Part shown: positions 34,709-41,534 of the stretch, piece after piece
How positions within the stretch are numbered: the stretch's first letter is position 1
Layout of the letters: each line of letters opens with the position of its first letter
Source: Verrucomicrobiaceae bacterium
Lineage (GTDB): Bacteria; Verrucomicrobiota; Verrucomicrobiia; Verrucomicrobiales; Verrucomicrobiaceae
Assembly (NCBI GenBank): GCA_016795365.1
Contig: JAEUHN010000026.1
Span: forward strand, 186,001 to 250,000
Length of the DNA: 64,000 nucleotides
Reading direction: 5' to 3'
Made by a program: the position numbers and the translations under genes
The notes under the pieces: model-generated
The model's input: only the letters and a program-made list of their open reading frames with translations
What the model was told of the DNA's origin: nothing
The model's database searches: none

Positions 34709-36034
34709 CTACGCGGTGAGGCCGAAGAAGTCGGCGAGGAACTTCACGTTTAGCACCACGATGATGCTGGCGGTGGTCCATGCCAGGAATTGGATCCATC
34801 GCGGACTGACGAACTCACCCATCTTCGCCTTGTTGCTGGTGAACATGACCAGCGGAATGACGGCAAAGGAGAGTTGCAGGCTGAGGACCACCTGGCTGAT
34901 CACCAGCAGCTTGGCTGTCCCGCTTTCCCCATAAATCGCGGTGACGATCAGGGCTGGCACGATGGCGATCGCGCGGGTGATCAGGCGGCGCAACCACGAC
35001 GGCAGCCGGATATTGAGGAAGCCCTCCATCACGATCTGACCAGCGAGCGTGCCCGTGAGCGTTGAGTTCTGCCCAGAGGCCAGCAGCGCCACGGCAAACA
35101 AAGTGCTCGCAACAGTCACACCAAGCATCGGGCTGAGCAGCTTGTAGGCATCCTGAATCTCCGCCACATCGTGCTTGCCCGCCGTGTGGAATGTGGCCGC
35201 CGCCACGATGAGGATGGCTGCATTGATGAACAAGGCGAACATCAGTGCCACGGTCGAGTCGATGGTGGCGAACTTGATCGCCTCACGCTTGCCTTGGGGT
35301 GAGCGGTCATACTGGCGCGTCTGCACGATGGATGAATGCAGGTAGAGATTGTGCGGCATCACCGTGGCACCCAGGATGCCGATGGCGACGAAGAGCATCT
35401 CCGGATTCTGAATGATCTCCGCCTTCGGCAGGAAGCCGCCCATGATGGCTGAGACAGACGGCCGTGAGAAGATGATCTCGGCAAGGAAGCAGCCACCAAT
35501 GATGAAGATCAGAGCGATGACGAAGGCCTCGATGTATCTGAAGCCGCGCTGCTGGAGCAGAAGGATGAGAAGCACATCGACCACGGTGATACACACGCCC
35601 CAGAAAAGCGGTATGCCGAACAGGAGATTCAGGGCAATCGCCGAGCCGATCACTTCGGCGAGGTCGCATGCACAGATCGCCACCTCACACAGCACCCAAA
35701 GCACGAAGCTAACCGGACGGGAGTAGTGATCACGACAGGCCTGGGCCAGATCGCGCCCCGTGGCAATGCCGAGCCGAGCACACAGGCTTTGCAGCAGAAT
35801 GGCCATGAGGTTCGAGACCAGGATGACGCTCAGCAACGTGTAACCAAACTGCGAACCGCCCGCGAGGTCCGTGGCCCAGTTGCCAGGGTCCATGTAGCCA
35901 ACCGCTACCAAGTAGCCGGGGCCTGAGAAGGCAAAGAGCTTGCGCCAGAAAGAGCCGGATTTCGGCACGGGCACCGAGCTGTGCGATTCGGGCAGGCTAG
36001 GCTGCTGCTCGGCAGTGAGGGAGACTTGATCCAT
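34709..36034 (-). CDS. mntH: Nramp-family Mn(II)/Fe(II) proton symporter
   Basis: 441 residues with about eleven transmembrane helices. Both Nramp metal-site motifs are present: DPGN (49-52, in [12 protein letters not shown]) on helix 1 and MPHNLYLHS on helix 6. The consensus transport stretch around [20 protein letters not shown] is also visible. It imports divalent metal across the inner membrane, driven by protons. It is divergent from mntR, and the two dyads between them indicate Mn-dependent repression. A cytosolic leader of about 35 residues precedes helix 1. Confidence 0.95.
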
Positions 36035-36082: not shown

Positions 36083-36144
36083 AGCAGAAATTTTCTTGCC
36101 CATTGTTGATGTGTTTGTTACCACAAGCGCCCGCCGCTTCACCC

Positions 36145-36597
36145 ATGCCTGCCGCCAAGAAAAAGAAGGCTGCCCGCGCTACCAGCGCCCAGTCACCCGC
36201 CATCGAGGACTACCTGGAACAGATTCACAATCTGATCGCCGGGAAAGGCTATGCCCGCGTGGTGGACATCGCGGAGAACCTCGGCATCGCGCAGGCAAGC
36301 GTGACCAACATGGTGCAGAAGCTCGCCTCTGAGGGCTACCTCGTTTATGAGCGCTATCGTGGCATCACATTAACCGATGAAGGGCGCAATGTGGGGGCCG
36401 CCATTGCCCGACGGCATGAGGTGCTGACGCGATTGCTCAGCGGCTTCGGCCTTGATCCCGAGTTGGTGCATCGAGATGTCGAAGGCATGGAGCACCACAT
36501 CAGCCGCCAGACCCTGGAGGTGCTGACGCTGCTGATGGAGGAACTCGAAGCCAATCCCGCTCTGGTGAAGAAACTAAAGCGCAAGCTTCAGCATTGA
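36145..36597 (+). CDS. mntR: Manganese-responsive DtxR-family repressor MntR
   Basis: 150 residues from ATG 36145; the frame extends to 36103, but that sequence lacks family resemblance. It aligns by eye with Bacillus MntR along its whole length: IEDYLEQIHNLI, GYARVVDIAENLGIAQASVTNMVQKL (helix-turn-helix), YLVYERYRGITLT (wing), RRHEVL and DVEGMEHH. The metal ligands seen in Bacillus MntR (Asp8, Glu11, His77, Glu99, Glu102, His103) all have counterparts. It should repress mntH, and perhaps itself, when Mn(II) is sufficient. Its 3' end overlaps the convergent FtsK-like gene by 24 bp. Confidence 0.95.
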   Translation: MPAAKKKKAARATSAQSPAIEDYLEQIHNLIAGKGYARVVDIAENLGIAQASVTNMVQKLASEGYLVYERYRGITLTDEGRNVGAAIARRHEVLTRLLSGFGLDPELVHRDVEGMEHHISRQTLEVLTLLMEELEANPALVKKLKRKLQH

Positions 36598-39500
36598 TTC
36601 CACTTCATCGAGCCACGTTCCATCGTGCTCGGCATATGGGCGGAAGGTCTCCAGCGTGCCCGCCTGCTCGTTGTGCAGCAAGGCGCGGTGCAGGCCCAGG
36701 TTCGATGCGCGAGGTGTGTCGATGAGGCTGGCGCTGTCATTGGCACTCATCTGGAACACCAGACGCATCTCAAACTCGCTCAGCAGCTTGCGGCTGAGGA
36801 AACGCGTGACGTTGTTGTAGGTGTCCGTGCTGACGACGAGGTGGATGCCCTGAGAGCTGCCTTCGGTGATCAAGCTACTCAACTGGCTGGCAGCACTTGG
36901 GCCGCTGTCACTGCTGCTGAAGCTGAAGTCCAGATCATCGTCCGCCTTGAGCTTCTTGAACTTGTGCAGCCCGTGGATGAACACGAACACCGCAGGAGCG
37001 CCGGGTTCGCCACCGCTGCGGTTCTTCAGTTCCTCATCAAGCTCGTTCATCACCTCGGAGAGTTGATGACCCTGCGCGACCTTTACGATTGGAGGCAGCA
37101 CCTTGAACAAGCGGTCCAGGAATCGCGCATCAGGCGTGCCTTCGGGTGTGTTGTGGAGGAACACAAACTTGGCTTTGCCGCGTGGATACTGGGCGATGAG
37201 CGAGACGAGTCCTATGGCAAGCAATGAAAGCGAGACCTCCTCGCGCTGGCCGACGACCAGCAGGTGGTTGCCGCTCTGCTTGTGGAAGACTGCCTCGGTG
37301 GGGCCTTTGATCGAGTTCGGAGCGCCCAGCCACATCCGGCCTGCCGCAGGAGCGTGTGATGCTGGCTTGGAAAGTGCGGCGGAGAGCAGGTAGTTCTCGC
37401 GCACATCGGCCGGTGCATTGCCTTCAAAGACGATGGGGCCAGCGTGCTTGTCATGCCGCTCGTCGGCGAGCTGGCGGACCTTGTGCAGCCATGCATCGCG
37501 TTCTTCGTCGTTGAGCCACGAAACCTGGAATGGGCTGTTGCCTTCGATGGCACCAGCACTGTCGTTGTAAATGCCTTCGCCGGGACGGGTGAGCAGCCGG
37601 GGAGCCGCGTTGTTCTCGTCCATGATGAGATAGGCATCGGCTTCGTTGCACTGAAGTGCCACACGAATCACCATCTGGCCCATGGTGGCACGGGCGAGGG
37701 TGAAGGCTCCACCGAGAGTCTGCGAGCCTAACAAGACGTGGATACCAAAGGCGCGGCCCTGTCTGACGATGCGATCGAACAACACAGACGCGGTCTGGGC
37801 GATGGTATCGTCTTCAACGAAGAACTCCTGGAACTCATCGATCAACAACAGGCTGCGAGGCATGGGCTCGGTGCCGCCTGCGCGTTTGTAGCCTGCAATG
37901 TCCTGGGCTCCCAGCTTGCGGAAGAGATCACCACGGCGCTTCAGTTCTTCGTCCACACGTTGCAGCACGCTGAGGGCAAACTCGCGATCGGACTCGATGG
38001 CCACCACCTTGGCGTGAGGCAAGCGGTTGGTGGCGTAGCACTTGAACTCGACCCCTTTCTTGAAGTCGATGAGGTAGAACTCGACCTGATCGGGGCTGTG
38101 ATACAGCGCGAGGTTGGTGATGATGATGTGGAAGAGGGTGGACTTACCGGAACCTGTCTTACCCGCGAAGAGGGCGTGCTGGCGTGTGCCCTTGCCGATG
38201 GCGAGGTATTGCAGCTTGGTAGCACCGGTGCGGCCGATCGGCACGCGCAGTTCCTGCGTGGTGTCCTCGGTCCAGAGTTCGCCATGAGGAGCGATTTGAT
38301 CGAACGGAAGCTCGACGCGATTTGAGTCGATGCTGGCCTTGCCGATCTTGTGCAGGAAGGGCACGGCGAGTTCATCCGACGGTGCGGCATCGAGACTGAG
38401 GATCGAGTCGGAAGGTGCCTGATCGAGCACGAAGTGTCCTTGTTCACGACGAATGCAGACGCTGCTCTTGCGCAGTTCATCGGGCACAAATCCATCCGGA
38501 TTGACGGCTCGTTTGTCCCAATGAATGAGCGTGAACACACCGCAGCGAGGGCCGCTGATGGCGATGCTCTGCAAGCGCCGGGCCGCGACGTCGCTGAAGC
38601 CATTCGGGAAGTCAGCGACGACGAGGAAGTGATACTTTTCGGCCGTGCTGCCGGCCTGCTCGTTGTATTGCGTGATGGTTTCATACTCATTGCGCAGATA
38701 CATCTGGATGACCTTCTCAATGTGGTCGTTCAGCTCCTGAAGGCGCTCTTCGATCTGATCGCGCTGAGTCCAGATGCGGCGGTTGATGAGCGTTTCCTCA
38801 TAATCGCCGAGGTGCATGACACCGGCGAAGTTCTGACCCAGACCAACAGGATCAAGGATGGTGAATGCCACCTTGCCGGGAGGCGTGGTGCAGAGCAGTC
38901 GCAGGATGATGTTGTTGATCGTGCTGCTCACGGGGCCACCGCTGGCTTCATTGGTCTCGATCAAAAGGGAGCCCAGTTGCGGATAGGCGAGGGTGACAGG
39001 CAGGACGACGTCTGCGGGGCCCGGCAAGGCGAGGGAGCGATGGCGGGGCAGAGTCTCGGCGGGTAGGTGCAAGGCGATGCTGCCAAAACGTGTCGCGGGC
39101 TGGAAGTGGGCTGCTGGGCTCCAGCTTTCGAGGAGGCTCTTCGTCCACTCGGGGAAGCTGGAAGCTGGCGACTTGGTGATCTCGGCGATGGCCTCGTAGA
39201 TCGGGAAGACATCGCGTTTCCATCGGGCTTCGATCTTGGCGAGTTCAGCGGTTTCGTAGGCGGCGATCTCGGCGATCTCGTCGTCGTGTGCTTTGACGAA
39301 TTCGTTGGTGGCGAGTTGGGCCTCGGTCTGACGCTGGCGGAGTTGTTCGTCGCGCTGTGATGAGACGAACCGTTGCTTCGAGAGCAGGAGTTGATCGTTC
39401 TTGTCGATCAGCACTGGCACGAGGTTGGTGAGCTTGTCCTTGGCCGAAGCTTCGAACTGCTTCTGCACATTATCGACGCCGCCCCACTGATTCTTGATCG

Positions 39501-40440
39501 CCTCCATCTCCGCCTCATGCTGATCGGTCAGGCGCCTGATCTCGGATTCATAGTTCTCGTGGAGTTCAGTGGCGGCTCGCGACTGCACGGCCCGGGCCGT
39601 GGTAATCGCTCTGGCAAGGCTGGTGGCGGTATCCTGGGCCTGAACGCGTCCCATAAAGTGGAAAGCGATGAGCATGATTAGAAGGCCGCCAGCCACGATG
39701 CCAGCGCGCTGGTATGCCGCCTCATTGGCACCAAAGCCAAAGGCCAGCATGGCACCGATCACGGCGATGATGAGAATCGCAAGCGTGGGAGGAACGGCTG
39801 CGAACAGTCGTGGCAGCATGAACCCGCGGAAGCTTTCGAGGTGCTCCTTTGCTTGGGCGAGATGGCCTTCTATCGAGGCGAGGTTCCTCTCATGCTCCGG
39901 TGAGGGCTGAGTTTCGTTGGGCTTGCGGAGGAGGTTCTGGAAGGATTGGTAGCCGCCAAAAAAGGTGCGGGCGGCGTGCTCCATCTTGCCGATGCGGGCT
40001 GCCAGTTCCTGAAGTGACTCAGTGCGTGCATTGAACTGTTCGGTGAGGCCGTTCGTGGTCTGGGTGAAGCTCCGCTTGAGCATCACCTGCTTGGCCTGGA
40101 CGCCGCCGAGGAACTTCTCACGACGCTCCTGCACCATGCGTCCGAGGTTGCGGGTGCCGCTGTTTTGGAATCGGATGAGCCTGGTGTGGCGTGCCTCGTG
40201 GGTGGCTTTGACCTGGGCTTCGAGCGCGTCGTAGTGCGTCTTGATCTCGAGTTCCTGGGCAGCGAGTTGTTCCTCGGTCTGACGCACGCCCTGCTGGTGG
40301 CGGCGGTCGGCGTGAAAGCGTTTGGTGCGCAGTTCCGCATTGAGCTGCTCCTCGGCCAGAGCGGCGTCGGCCACGTGCAGTTTGAGGTCGTTGAGCAGCG
40401 CGAGGGTGCGATGGGCGGATAAGTCGATGGGGCTATTCAC
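36574..40440 (-). CDS. Membrane FtsK/SpoIIIE-type ATPase with three ATPase-like modules (EccC/EssC-like)
   Basis: 1288 residues. An N-terminal coiled coil (1-205) leads to two transmembrane helices (~208-235, 244-264) and a second coiled coil (~265-410). Module 1 (~455-660) has the FtsK strand order but no P-loop. Module 2 (~700-1000) is canonical: Walker A GKTGSGKST (760-768), LIDFKKGVEF, Walker B LLLIDEF (864-870), and GSQTLGGAF. Module 3 (~1035-1288) keeps the fold, but Walker A reads GQREEVSLS and Walker B FVFIHG. FtsK's DNA-translocase layout and gamma domain are absent. EccC/EssC of type VII secretion likewise chain several FtsK modules after two membrane helices. It closes the WXG100 operon. 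Confidence 0.85.
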   Translation of the reverse strand: MNSPIDLSAHRTLALLNDLKLHVADAALAEEQLNAELRTKRFHADRRHQQGVRQTEEQLAAQELEIKTHYDALEAQVKATHEARHTRLIRFQNSGTRNLGRMVQERREKFLGGVQAKQVMLKRSFTQTTNGLTEQFNARTESLQELAARIGKMEHAARTFFGGYQSFQNLLRKPNETQPSPEHERNLASIEGHLAQAKEHLESFRGFMLPRLFAAVPPTLAILIIAVIGAMLAFGFGANEAAYQRAGIVAGGLLIMLIAFHFMGRVQAQDTATSLARAITTARAVQSRAATELHENYESEIRRLTDQHEAEMEAIKNQWGGVDNVQKQFEASAKDKLTNLVPVLIDKNDQLLLSKQRFVSSQRDEQLRQRQTEAQLATNEFVKAHDDEIAEIAAYETAELAKIEARWKRDVFPIYEAIAEITKSPASSFPEWTKSLLESWSPAAHFQPATRFGSIALHLPAETLPRHRSLALPGPADVVLPVTLAYPQLGSLLIETNEASGGPVSSTINNIILRLLCTTPPGKVAFTILDPVGLGQNFAGVMHLGDYEETLINRRIWTQRDQIEERLQELNDHIEKVIQMYLRNEYETITQYNEQAGSTAEKYHFLVVADFPNGFSDVAARRLQSIAISGPRCGVFTLIHWDKRAVNPDGFVPDELRKSSVCIRREQGHFVLDQAPSDSILSLDAAPSDELAVPFLHKIGKASIDSNRVELPFDQIAPHGELWTEDTTQELRVPIGRTGATKLQYLAIGKGTRQHALFAGKTGSGKSTLFHIIITNLALYHSPDQVEFYLIDFKKGVEFKCYATNRLPHAKVVAIESDREFALSVLQRVDEELKRRGDLFRKLGAQDIAGYKRAGGTEPMPRSLLLIDEFQEFFVEDDTIAQTASVLFDRIVRQGRAFGIHVLLGSQTLGGAFTLARATMGQMVIRVALQCNEADAYLIMDENNAAPRLLTRPGEGIYNDSAGAIEGNSPFQVSWLNDEERDAWLHKVRQLADERHDKHAGPIVFEGNAPADVRENYLLSAALSKPASHAPAAGRMWLGAPNSIKGPTEAVFHKQSGNHLLVVGQREEVSLSLLAIGLVSLIAQYPRGKAKFVFLHNTPEGTPDARFLDRLFKVLPPIVKVAQGHQLSEVMNELDEELKNRSGGEPGAPAVFVFIHGLHKFKKLKADDDLDFSFSSSDSGPSAASQLSSLITEGSSQGIHLVVSTDTYNNVTRFLSRKLLSEFEMRLVFQMSANDSASLIDTPRASNLGLHRALLHNEQAGTLETFRPYAEHDGTWLDEVESMLKLAL

Positions 40441-40645
40441 AGTCGTGTTTTACTTTCCTCAGCAAAAGGTCCATTTCCTCCATGATCTGTTTGGCGCGGG
40501 TGATCGAGTGGGGAAGTTTTTCCAGGTAGGTGCGTTCGAATTCGAGGGCTTTCTGATCGCGCCAGTAGTTGCGCGTGTGCTGCCAGTGTCGAGCGAGTTC
40601 GCGCACGGCTTCTTCGAGGTTGGTGGCTCCGACGCGGGCGCTCAT
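40433..40645 (-). CDS. Small WXG100-like helical hairpin protein
   Basis: 70 residues. Helix 1 (EEAVRELARHWQHTRNYW) runs into a W28-R-D turn, and helix 2 (ALEFERTYLEKLPHSITRAKQIMEEMDLLLRKV) follows with the F...Y..L spacing seen after the WXG bend. No signal peptide is present. Length and pattern fit an ESAT-6-like half-hairpin, although Gly of WXG is replaced. Its stop overlaps the ATPase start by 8 bp, and 20 bp separate it from the coiled-coil gene, so it is firmly part of the operon. A substrate or adaptor role is inferred. Confidence 0.65.
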   Translation of the reverse strand: MSARVGATNLEEAVRELARHWQHTRNYWRDQKALEFERTYLEKLPHSITRAKQIMEEMDLLLRKVKHDCE

Positions 40646-40665
40646 GCAAAAGACAATGGATGTAG

Positions 40666-41214
40666 TTAAGAACCCACATTCGGTGGTTCAGTCGCGGTAT
40701 CGGAAGTTTCTTCGGGCAGACGGTCGCCTCCGGTTTGAGGGCCGAGTCTTTCTGCATACGCATCGAGCGTGCGGATGATCTGCACCATGTGCTGGATCGC
40801 CTGGGGAATTTCGAAGTCGATGAACCCTGTGACACCTTCGAGCTTCTTGCTCAGGGGTTGAATGGTGGTCTCGAAGGTGCGGCTCCAGTGCTTCACAGCG
40901 CGGAGCTTCTCCTCTGCTTCTTCGAGGGAGGCCTTGGCCTTGCGGACGTTTTGCTGCTGGACCACAGGATTGTCGATGAACTCCGACATGCGAGCCGAGA
41001 GCAACTCCTGCTGTGCCTGCTCAAGCAGACGGAGCCGCCTTTTGACCTGGGCCTCCCAGTAGGGCATGCGGTCAGACTGAATCCAAAGCCGGGTGCGTCG
41101 CACTTCCTCGGAGGCCTGATCGATGGCTTTGCGCGCCTTGCCCTGGAAGAGGATGAGCTTCGCTCGGAAGGCGTCCAGTTCATCAATGGAACGGACTTTT
41201 GCTTCGTCGGCCAT
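40666..41214 (-). CDS. Coiled-coil protein of the WXG100/FtsK operon
   Basis: 182 residues, nearly all helical up to ~155: LDAFRAKLILFQGKARKAIDQASEEVRR, RRLRLLEQAQQELLSARMSEF, and VRKAKASLEEAEEKLRAVKHWSRTFE. The C-terminal ~25 residues are disordered (GGDRLPEETSDTATEPP). No signal peptide or membrane segment is present. It could be a long ESX-type helical substrate, a chaperone, or a tether to the coiled-coil arms of the ATPase. It lies 47 bp downstream of the WXG100 gene and 20 bp before the 70-residue protein gene. I do not recognise a named family. Confidence 0.65.
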   Translation of the reverse strand: MADEAKVRSIDELDAFRAKLILFQGKARKAIDQASEEVRRTRLWIQSDRMPYWEAQVKRRLRLLEQAQQELLSARMSEFIDNPVVQQQNVRKAKASLEEAEEKLRAVKHWSRTFETTIQPLSKKLEGVTGFIDFEIPQAIQHMVQIIRTLDAYAERLGPQTGGDRLPEETSDTATEPPNVGS

Positions 41215-41261
41215 AGGTCGGGATCAGAGAAAGGGAATGCTCGGCGTGGACCGTTCGGCGG

Positions 41262-41534
41262 TCAGCGCTGGGAGAGGTATTCTTCGATGCGCTGGGCCTT
41301 GCGGAGCAGGAAGGGAGTGTGTTTCTCGGAAACTTCGAGGAACTTCTTCATCGCTTTCATGGTGGTAATGAACTCCTCGGCAAACTTCTGGTGCTCATCG
41401 TCTTGCCACGTTGCGCCGAGGGCGGAAAACCTTGCCTGGAGCGCTCCGGCGCGAGTCTGGAGGTCGTCGTTGAAGCGCTTCAGCTCTTTCGCGAAGCGCC
41501 TCACCTCCTCGGGGTCCATCATTGCTTGTGCCAT
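41262..41534 (-). CDS. WXG100 (ESAT-6-like) family protein
   Basis: 90 residues, close to the ~100-residue family norm. Helix 1 (PEEVRRFAKELKRFNDDLQTRAGALQARFSAL) leads to a W43-Q-D turn at the expected WXG position. Helix 2 (HQKFAEEFITTMKAMKKFLEVSEKHTPFLLRKAQRIEEY) follows with the invariant F after the bend. WXG100 proteins form antiparallel hairpin dimers and are substrates or structural partners of type VII export ATPases. A C-terminal YxxxD/E signal is not present. It is the first gene of the leftward operon ending in the FtsK-like ATPase, which strongly supports the assignment. Confidence 0.82.
   Translation of the reverse strand: MAQAMMDPEEVRRFAKELKRFNDDLQTRAGALQARFSALGATWQDDEHQKFAEEFITTMKAMKKFLEVSEKHTPFLLRKAQRIEEYLSQR

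Follow-up and report, generated by a model that had tools for sequence, protein, structure and literature searches.

Could a WXG100 gene set beside the gene of an FtsK-type ATPase be the core of a type VII secretion system (T7SS) in a cell with two membranes? T7SSs have been studied in Actinomycetota and Bacillota, where they come with several extra membrane parts. The question is raised by a 64,000-nucleotide stretch of DNA from a Verrucomicrobiaceae bacterium (contig JAEUHN010000026.1, positions 186,001 to 250,000; ‘the window’ below is this whole stretch), in which four genes on the minus strand encode a WXG100 protein, a coiled-coil protein (CC182), a small protein (H70) and an FtsK/SpoIIIE-type ATPase. 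The operon is a real, conserved, non-canonical type VII-like module, small and toxin-free, for which we infer a role in secretion. It can be read as a member of the WXG100/EssC-like ATPase family that stands alone, is anchored in the membrane and is akin to the T7SS core, and the proposal that this module is a protein pump has, taken as a whole, an even chance of being right.

A four-gene operon conserved in Verrucomicrobiota

All four open reading frames are packed at 36574–41534, where the original prediction had placed them, in the order WXG100, CC182, H70 and ATPase. The WXG100 gene comes first, and the ATPase gene starts with GTG and overlaps the H70 gene by 8 bases. The products (lengths in amino acids, aa) and the parts of the ATPase are as follows.

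41262–41534, minus strand: WXG100 protein, 90 aa, with a W43-Q-D45 turn and a C-terminal YLxQR (PF06013 above cut-off; HP0062 and EsxB in the Protein Data Bank, PDB)
40666–41214, minus strand: CC182, 182 aa, helical hairpin with a disordered C-terminal tail (AlphaFold2)
40433–40645, minus strand: H70, 70 aa, putative WXG100-like hairpin with a W-R-D motif (alignment; sub-threshold WXG100 similarity)
36574–40440, minus strand: EccC/EssC-like FtsK ATPase, 1288 aa (PF01580; EccCa below cut-off; EccC 4nh0)
39826–40440, minus strand: ATPase residues 1–205, N-terminal region, putative cytosolic coiled coil (composition, position before the membrane hairpin, low conservation)
39643–39825, minus strand: ATPase residues 206–266, predicted membrane hairpin of two segments (Kyte-Doolittle; homologues)
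38320–39168, minus strand: ATPase module 1, residues 425–707, no Walker A (AlphaFold2 model; EccC 4nh0 alignment; motif scan)
37426–38319, minus strand: ATPase module 2, residues 708–1005, the sole module with a Walker A (FtsK motor fold; EccCb1-D2; Walker A count)
38140–38163, minus strand: Walker A GKTGSGKS, residues 760–767, invariant in aligned homologues
36607–37425, minus strand: ATPase module 3, residues 1006–1278, no Walker A, at the position of the signal-binding D3 of EccC/EssC (EccC D2-D3 and EssC D3 alignments)

Conservation was followed across 98 loci, 96 of them distinct (80 from a genome scan for the ATPase, 17 from whole genomes, plus the window); the scan returned Verrucomicrobiota nearly exclusively. 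All four genes occur together in 78 of the 96 distinct loci, with exceptions mostly at contig ends. Counted singly, 82 of the 98 loci have the WXG100 gene, 84 that of CC182 and 86 that of H70, and most gaps are contigs that end at the ATPase. Order and strand are constant, and the genes overlap or almost touch in the majority of loci. Since relatives with clearly diverged ATPases keep the same genes, order and strand, the arrangement is not due to chance. Both a WXG100 match and conservation of the small genes beside the ATPase, whose absence the original prediction had named as grounds for abandoning it, were thus found. No further neighbour family is conserved across the 96 loci, the next most frequent reaching 10.

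In pairwise comparison WXG100 averages 70.5% identity, the ATPase 48%, H70 40% and CC182 38%. The distance matrices of the four genes correlate (Spearman 0.56–0.75, with 0 of 300 permutations as high), a correlation that partly reflects shared ancestry. Of 388 genomes sampled from the phylum, 20 have a close WXG100, and a sister genus in the window's family lacks it. In a 289-genome sample of the phylum, the carriers of the ATPase are the carriers of the close WXG100, except for the most distant match (G051). Each carrier has one WXG100, as does the window's genome when proteins above the cut-off are counted, with the exception of G212, which has two and a second system. CC182 is likewise present once per carrier, always inside the operon, and each sampled genome holds one operon copy. 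A quick ATPase tree requires 14 label changes to fit the taxonomy, against a minimum possible of 10 and a shuffled mean of 24.2. Tree, copy number and distribution together speak for mainly vertical or within-phylum descent with losses, and not for a freely mobile element.

Three loci stand apart. The ATPase, its frame open, is all that remains at L096:7284–11042, where WXG100, CC182 and H70 are missing beside it, and an equally open ATPase frame lacks adjoining WXG100 and CC182 genes at L106:5354–9155. L053 is an operon on a contig titled Bacteroidetes that groups within Verrucomicrobiota, probably a binning or naming error.

The ATPase and its small partners

The 1288-aa product, originally described as a membrane FtsK/SpoIIIE ATPase, earns that description: it matches FtsK_SpoIIIE (PF01580) at 1e-32, and a hydrophobic segment lies at the site of the predicted membrane hairpin in 77 of 86 full-length homologues. 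The region N-terminal of this hairpin is poorly conserved. The ATPase also matches the NCBIfam models of EccCa (2.6e-36), EccCb and EssC, all below their equivalog cut-offs, and its top PDB match by sequence is EccC 4nh0 (3.7e-34). An AlphaFold2 model covering residues 425–1288 (pLDDT 85.4) agrees, as its top Foldseek match among all PDB chains is EccC of Thermomonospora curvata (E 2.5e-31). EccC 4nh0 could be aligned with model residues 5–849 (VIA-align 2) over 717 residues and all three modules, with Z 23.0 and an rmsd of 13.8, so that the relative placement of the modules differs. Modules 2–3 align with EccC D2-D3 (4n1a) over 480 residues at Z 23.8 and with EccC/EssC at Z 23–24, module 3 aligns with EssC D3 (6tv1) at Z 17.7, and module 2 alone matches FtsK motors (Z 25) and EccCb1-D2 (Z 23). 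Exactly one Walker A is found in 84 of 86 homologues, in module 2 wherever sequences were inspected, and G760–S767 is invariant across 41 aligned homologues. These alignments, with the single Walker A in module 2, indicate by sequence and model an ATPase of EccC/EssC type in which the pattern of active modules has changed. Other identities were considered and rejected: division FtsK because the same genome encodes a separate FtsK, and the defence families SspH, Mad8 and HerA, whose matches are confined to the shared FtsK module.

Of the small partners, the 90-aa protein is the clearest. Its PF06013 match (E=1.2e-10; 42 bits, cut-off 27.3) places it, at the level of sequence, in the WXG100 superfamily, in line with the W-Q-D turn first noticed in it. 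A profile of 50 homologues has H. pylori HP0062 as its nearest solved structure (1.3e-10), followed by EsxB and EsxA. Mean column identity among these homologues is 79%, and W43 and D45 are invariant. Most are 90 residues long and end in an invariant Y86, L87 and Q89 and a mostly conserved R90.

CC182, first described as a coiled-coil protein, is modelled by AlphaFold2 (pLDDT 89.7) as two long antiparallel helices (residues 2–76 and 84–156, ~75 residues each). Profile comparison of CC182 with the H70 and WXG100 families yielded nothing useful. H70 is the only weak part of the original observation: its ORF and its W-R-D turn are real, with W21, W28, D30 and F36 invariant and a near-invariant Asp-Cys(-Glu) at the C-terminal end (window 40433–40441), but its similarity to WXG100 stays under the threshold. 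It matches WXG100_2 at E=0.08, with 3 of 54 members under 0.1, and hhalign against the WXG100 family gave E=0.0023 but a probability of 12.7%, over the W-x-D turn. This likeness is suggestive of a WXG100-like hairpin. No membrane segment was found in any of the three small proteins.

Beyond the ATPase end of the operon lie a convergent MntR-type regulator gene (36103–36597, plus strand) and, farther on, an Nramp transporter gene (34709–36034, minus strand); upstream of the WXG100 gene, an unrelated membrane protein is encoded. The base composition of the operon region is flat, without an island-like signature, and a genomic-island origin was rejected on this ground. A phage origin was rejected as well: viral contigs gave a single WXG100 match of 15 residues, and ATPase matches in phages are distant and partial only.

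Related loci and the coiled-coil slot

Members of the ATPase family also occur with WXG100 genes at loci outside the main clade, where a longer coiled-coil protein is encoded after or near the WXG100. In the Helicobacter, Caballeronia and L037 loci described next, the order is WXG100, coiled-coil protein, two small proteins and FtsK. On a plasmid of Helicobacter sp. (L139:4746–9148), a WXG100 is followed by a coiled-coil HNH/colicin-type DNase, a SUKH immunity-type protein, a 77-aa protein and the ATPase; this is where we found a nuclease domain in the coiled-coil slot, and the set resembles a toxin-immunity pair within a WXG100/FtsK operon of a diderm. A Caballeronia plasmid (L137) encodes vWA, WXG100, a 436-aa coiled-coil protein, 113- and 76-aa proteins, the ATPase, CARF, vWA, PP2C and a kinase. 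The second system of G212 (L037:4666–15345) is laid out as vWA, WXG100, a 442-aa coiled-coil protein, two small proteins, FtsK, CARF-like, vWA, PP2C-like and kinase-like proteins, a layout that resembles CoCoNuT III-A/TerY-P extensions. For CoCoNuT-type loci in the Caballeronia/L037 order, a nuclease in the coiled-coil protein has been reported (PMC11090510). Neither the Caballeronia nor the L037 ATPase has a membrane hairpin by the test applied to the operon ATPases. A Rhodococcus plasmid carries genes for the ATPase, a 314-aa protein, a 73-aa protein and a WXG100-like 87-aa protein.

There is a good positional argument that CC182 occupies the slot held by coiled-coil nucleases in these loci, without a nuclease domain. 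In WXG100-associated nuclease toxins, its probable equivalent is the helical targeting part; the toxin domain has not been kept here. With the N-terminus of the Rhodococcus 314-aa protein, CC182 aligns end to end (hhalign, probability 50%, E=1.6e-4, a single sequence).

Further loci came to light alongside. L038:8734–12802 (G051, from the same order as the window's genome) encodes two 97-aa WXG100-like proteins, a 316-aa membrane protein and an 836-aa FtsK ATPase, and represents a third form of WXG100/FtsK system. At L036:6554–15298 (G196), a 461-aa frame ends in a WXG100 hairpin, possibly a separate gene that the ORF caller read through; genes for an FtsK ATPase and a kinase-like protein follow downstream. 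L141:1759–9636 (MT836827.1, labelled bacteriophage) encodes a 1423-aa FtsK-type ATPase and, after it, a W-N-D hairpin joined to an HExxH-type metallopeptidase-like region. A recombinase-like gene lies nearby; the locus is possibly a mobile element and not a phage. L143:5050–10883, on a contig classed as viral, has an FtsK ATPase followed by several small W-x-D-turn proteins and a 276-aa coiled-coil protein.

Export, internal work and the known systems

Two features of a T7SS are present at the operon: a membrane-bound multi-module ATPase of EccC/EssC type, though one short of the equivalog cut-offs, and a WXG100 gene adjoining the ATPase gene. To this extent the original idea of a T7SS core in a diderm holds. 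As a protein pump, the ATPase would form a hexamer at the inner membrane and bind the WXG100, probably as a homodimer, via its helices and the fixed C-terminal YLxQR; as in EccC, module 3 may be the binding site. Module 2, the only active one, would then pump the WXG100, alongside CC182 or bound to it, through or across the inner membrane, or remodel a complex of the WXG100 dimer with CC182 and H70; H70 may serve as a second hairpin adaptor or partner. Passage of cargo across the inner membrane is postulated by homology with EccC/EssC, with chances about evenly balanced. This proposal is favoured because both WXG100 and ATPase homologies are in place, EccC being best over the cytosolic part and the membrane hairpin conserved; because the four genes are fixed in order and strand, their distances correlate, and ATPase and close WXG100 co-occur; and because the genome has a separate FtsK and the gene order of related loci matches.

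A number of results pull the other way. YukD (EccD-like, PF08817) and EssB/YukC (PF10140) are absent in nine operon-bearing genomes, while the B. subtilis control was positive for both. The YxxxD/E export signal is found in the last 30 residues of none of the 50 WXG100 sequences, and the HxxxD/ExxhxxxH pattern described by Poulsen et al. (PMC3935865) fits only 3 of the 50. No effector or toxin domain was found with, or attached to, the four-gene operon, and no periplasmic or outer-membrane partner gene is conserved at it in the 96 loci. A fold search with CC182 found no match below E 0.001, the hits being limited to generic coiled coils, chemoreceptors, BAR domains and YscO, and comparisons with the N-termini of the Caballeronia/L037, Helicobacter and Deinococcus coiled-coil proteins gave no support. 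Published close relatives, finally, are linked to nucleic-acid conflict systems.

Because YukD, EssB and the YxxxD/E signal are absent, the operon is not a canonical T7SS. The original claim of a secretion system with export was unsupported or overstated, given the lack of an export signal, an effector and an outer-membrane partner. The accompanying claim that other T7SS parts are not encoded is borne out for YukD and EssB; EccB had no match in operon-bearing genomes, but no control genome matched either. LXG domains are lacking in the same nine genomes (control positive).

The main rival to export is a purely internal role, in which the operon would encode a stress- or invader-sensing or DNA-handling machine with WXG100, CC182 and H70 as regulatory subunits of a membrane-tethered pump that exports nothing. 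The closest published relatives sit in CoCoNuT III-A/TerY-P loci with nucleases, kinases and CARF proteins (PMC11090510, PMC4978471; L137 and L037 here), the active module 2 is best matched by FtsK motor structures, and the small proteins have neither a membrane segment nor a known export signal. Yet no conserved kinase, phosphatase, CARF, nuclease or TerY-P neighbour accompanies the operon in the 96 loci, the ATPase is membrane-anchored whereas the CoCoNuT forms are not, and the best Foldseek match across three modules is EccC/EssC, not FtsK. We consider such a machine unlikely.

Improbable, and clearly more so, is a housekeeping envelope or cell-surface machine specific to Verrucomicrobiota, whose hairpins would be structural parts that stay with the ATPase and are not cargo. 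Such a role would suit a WXG100 that is the most conserved of the four genes, unlike a diversifying effector, as well as the single copy in almost all sampled carriers, the ATPase tree roughly in line with taxonomy, the base composition and the lack of a toxin. The patchy distribution described above, down to the missing sister genus, speaks against it and implies that the operon is not essential to the lineage. That the operon is a decaying remnant of a toxin-delivery system, as the position of CC182 and the gene losses at L096 and L106 might suggest, is highly improbable and largely refuted by conservation, given that remnants would drift, whereas here none of the four frames is broken, dozens of lineages conserve them, and the Walker A and the WXG100 turn are invariant.

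A further reading is tentative and on the unlikely side: a toxin-free, mostly vertically inherited, membrane-anchored four-gene machine of Verrucomicrobiota in which the near-invariant WXG100 is a working part and not an effector, and which would serve a two-membrane cell as a minimal protein translocase. If the four-gene form does move protein across a membrane, it would offer a smaller T7SS-type core for study, one that shows how an ATPase and a WXG100 work when EccD and EssB are missing, and probably EccB and EccE too. The suggestion, made in 2012, that such solo WXG loci function in secretion in diderms would be put to the test as well.

How does the operon compare with known systems? With EccC of ESX/T7SSa and EssC of T7SSb it shares a WXG100 protein and an ATPase with two membrane segments and three modules; it differs in lacking YukD, EssB and a YxxxD/E tail and in having a Walker A in module 2 only. 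The novelty first claimed for it was too high, since the kind was noted in a table footnote of Zhang et al. 2012 (PMC3482391). There, a solo WXG with a YueA-like ATPase of three HerA/FtsK domains, only the middle one active, is listed among ‘mobile versions of T7SS’, with verrucomicrobia, planctomycetes, cyanobacteria, proteobacteria and bacteroidetes as carriers. That footnote agrees with our operon in the WXG100, the three-module, middle-active ATPase and the verrucomicrobial carriers, but gives no gene content, whereas here four genes, CC182 and H70 among them, are fixed, the ATPase has a membrane hairpin and nothing points to mobility.

The EssC-like ATPase/WXG100 extension of CoCoNuT III-A/TerY-P loci (PMC11090510), for which secretion is likewise a proposal, has a similar gene order and, like the operon, an ATPase of three modules with only D2 active and an N-terminal coiled coil (putative here); it too encodes a WXG100, a coiled-coil protein and a further small protein that lacks the canonical motif. 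For stand-alone versions, that paper cites Anantharaman et al. 2012. In contrast to the operon, those ATPases are without membrane segments, their coiled-coil protein has a restriction-type nuclease, and their loci are embedded among kinase, phosphatase, vWA and CARF genes. HP0062/HP0066 of H. pylori (PMC4978471, PMC3397514) likewise belong to a diderm in which a WXG100-like dimer is clustered with an FtsK/SpoIIIE protein, and HP0062 is the nearest solved structure to the operon's WXG100; WXG plus FtsK has already been called a minimal type VII set and HP0062/HP0066 a WXG100 secretion system (PMC4978471). Their cluster differs in including an HNH-superfamily nuclease, and no CC182 or H70 family has been reported from it. 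No description of the four-gene operon was found in the literature, subscription journals lying largely outside the search, and the toxin-free version appears to be undescribed so far. Thus, the solo WXG with a three-module, middle-active ATPase and its relatives HP0062/HP0066 and CoCoNuT III-A were known already, while the fixed, membrane-anchored, toxin-free four-gene form with its highly conserved WXG100 is new, as is the match of its gene order to loci where a nuclease fills the slot of CC182.

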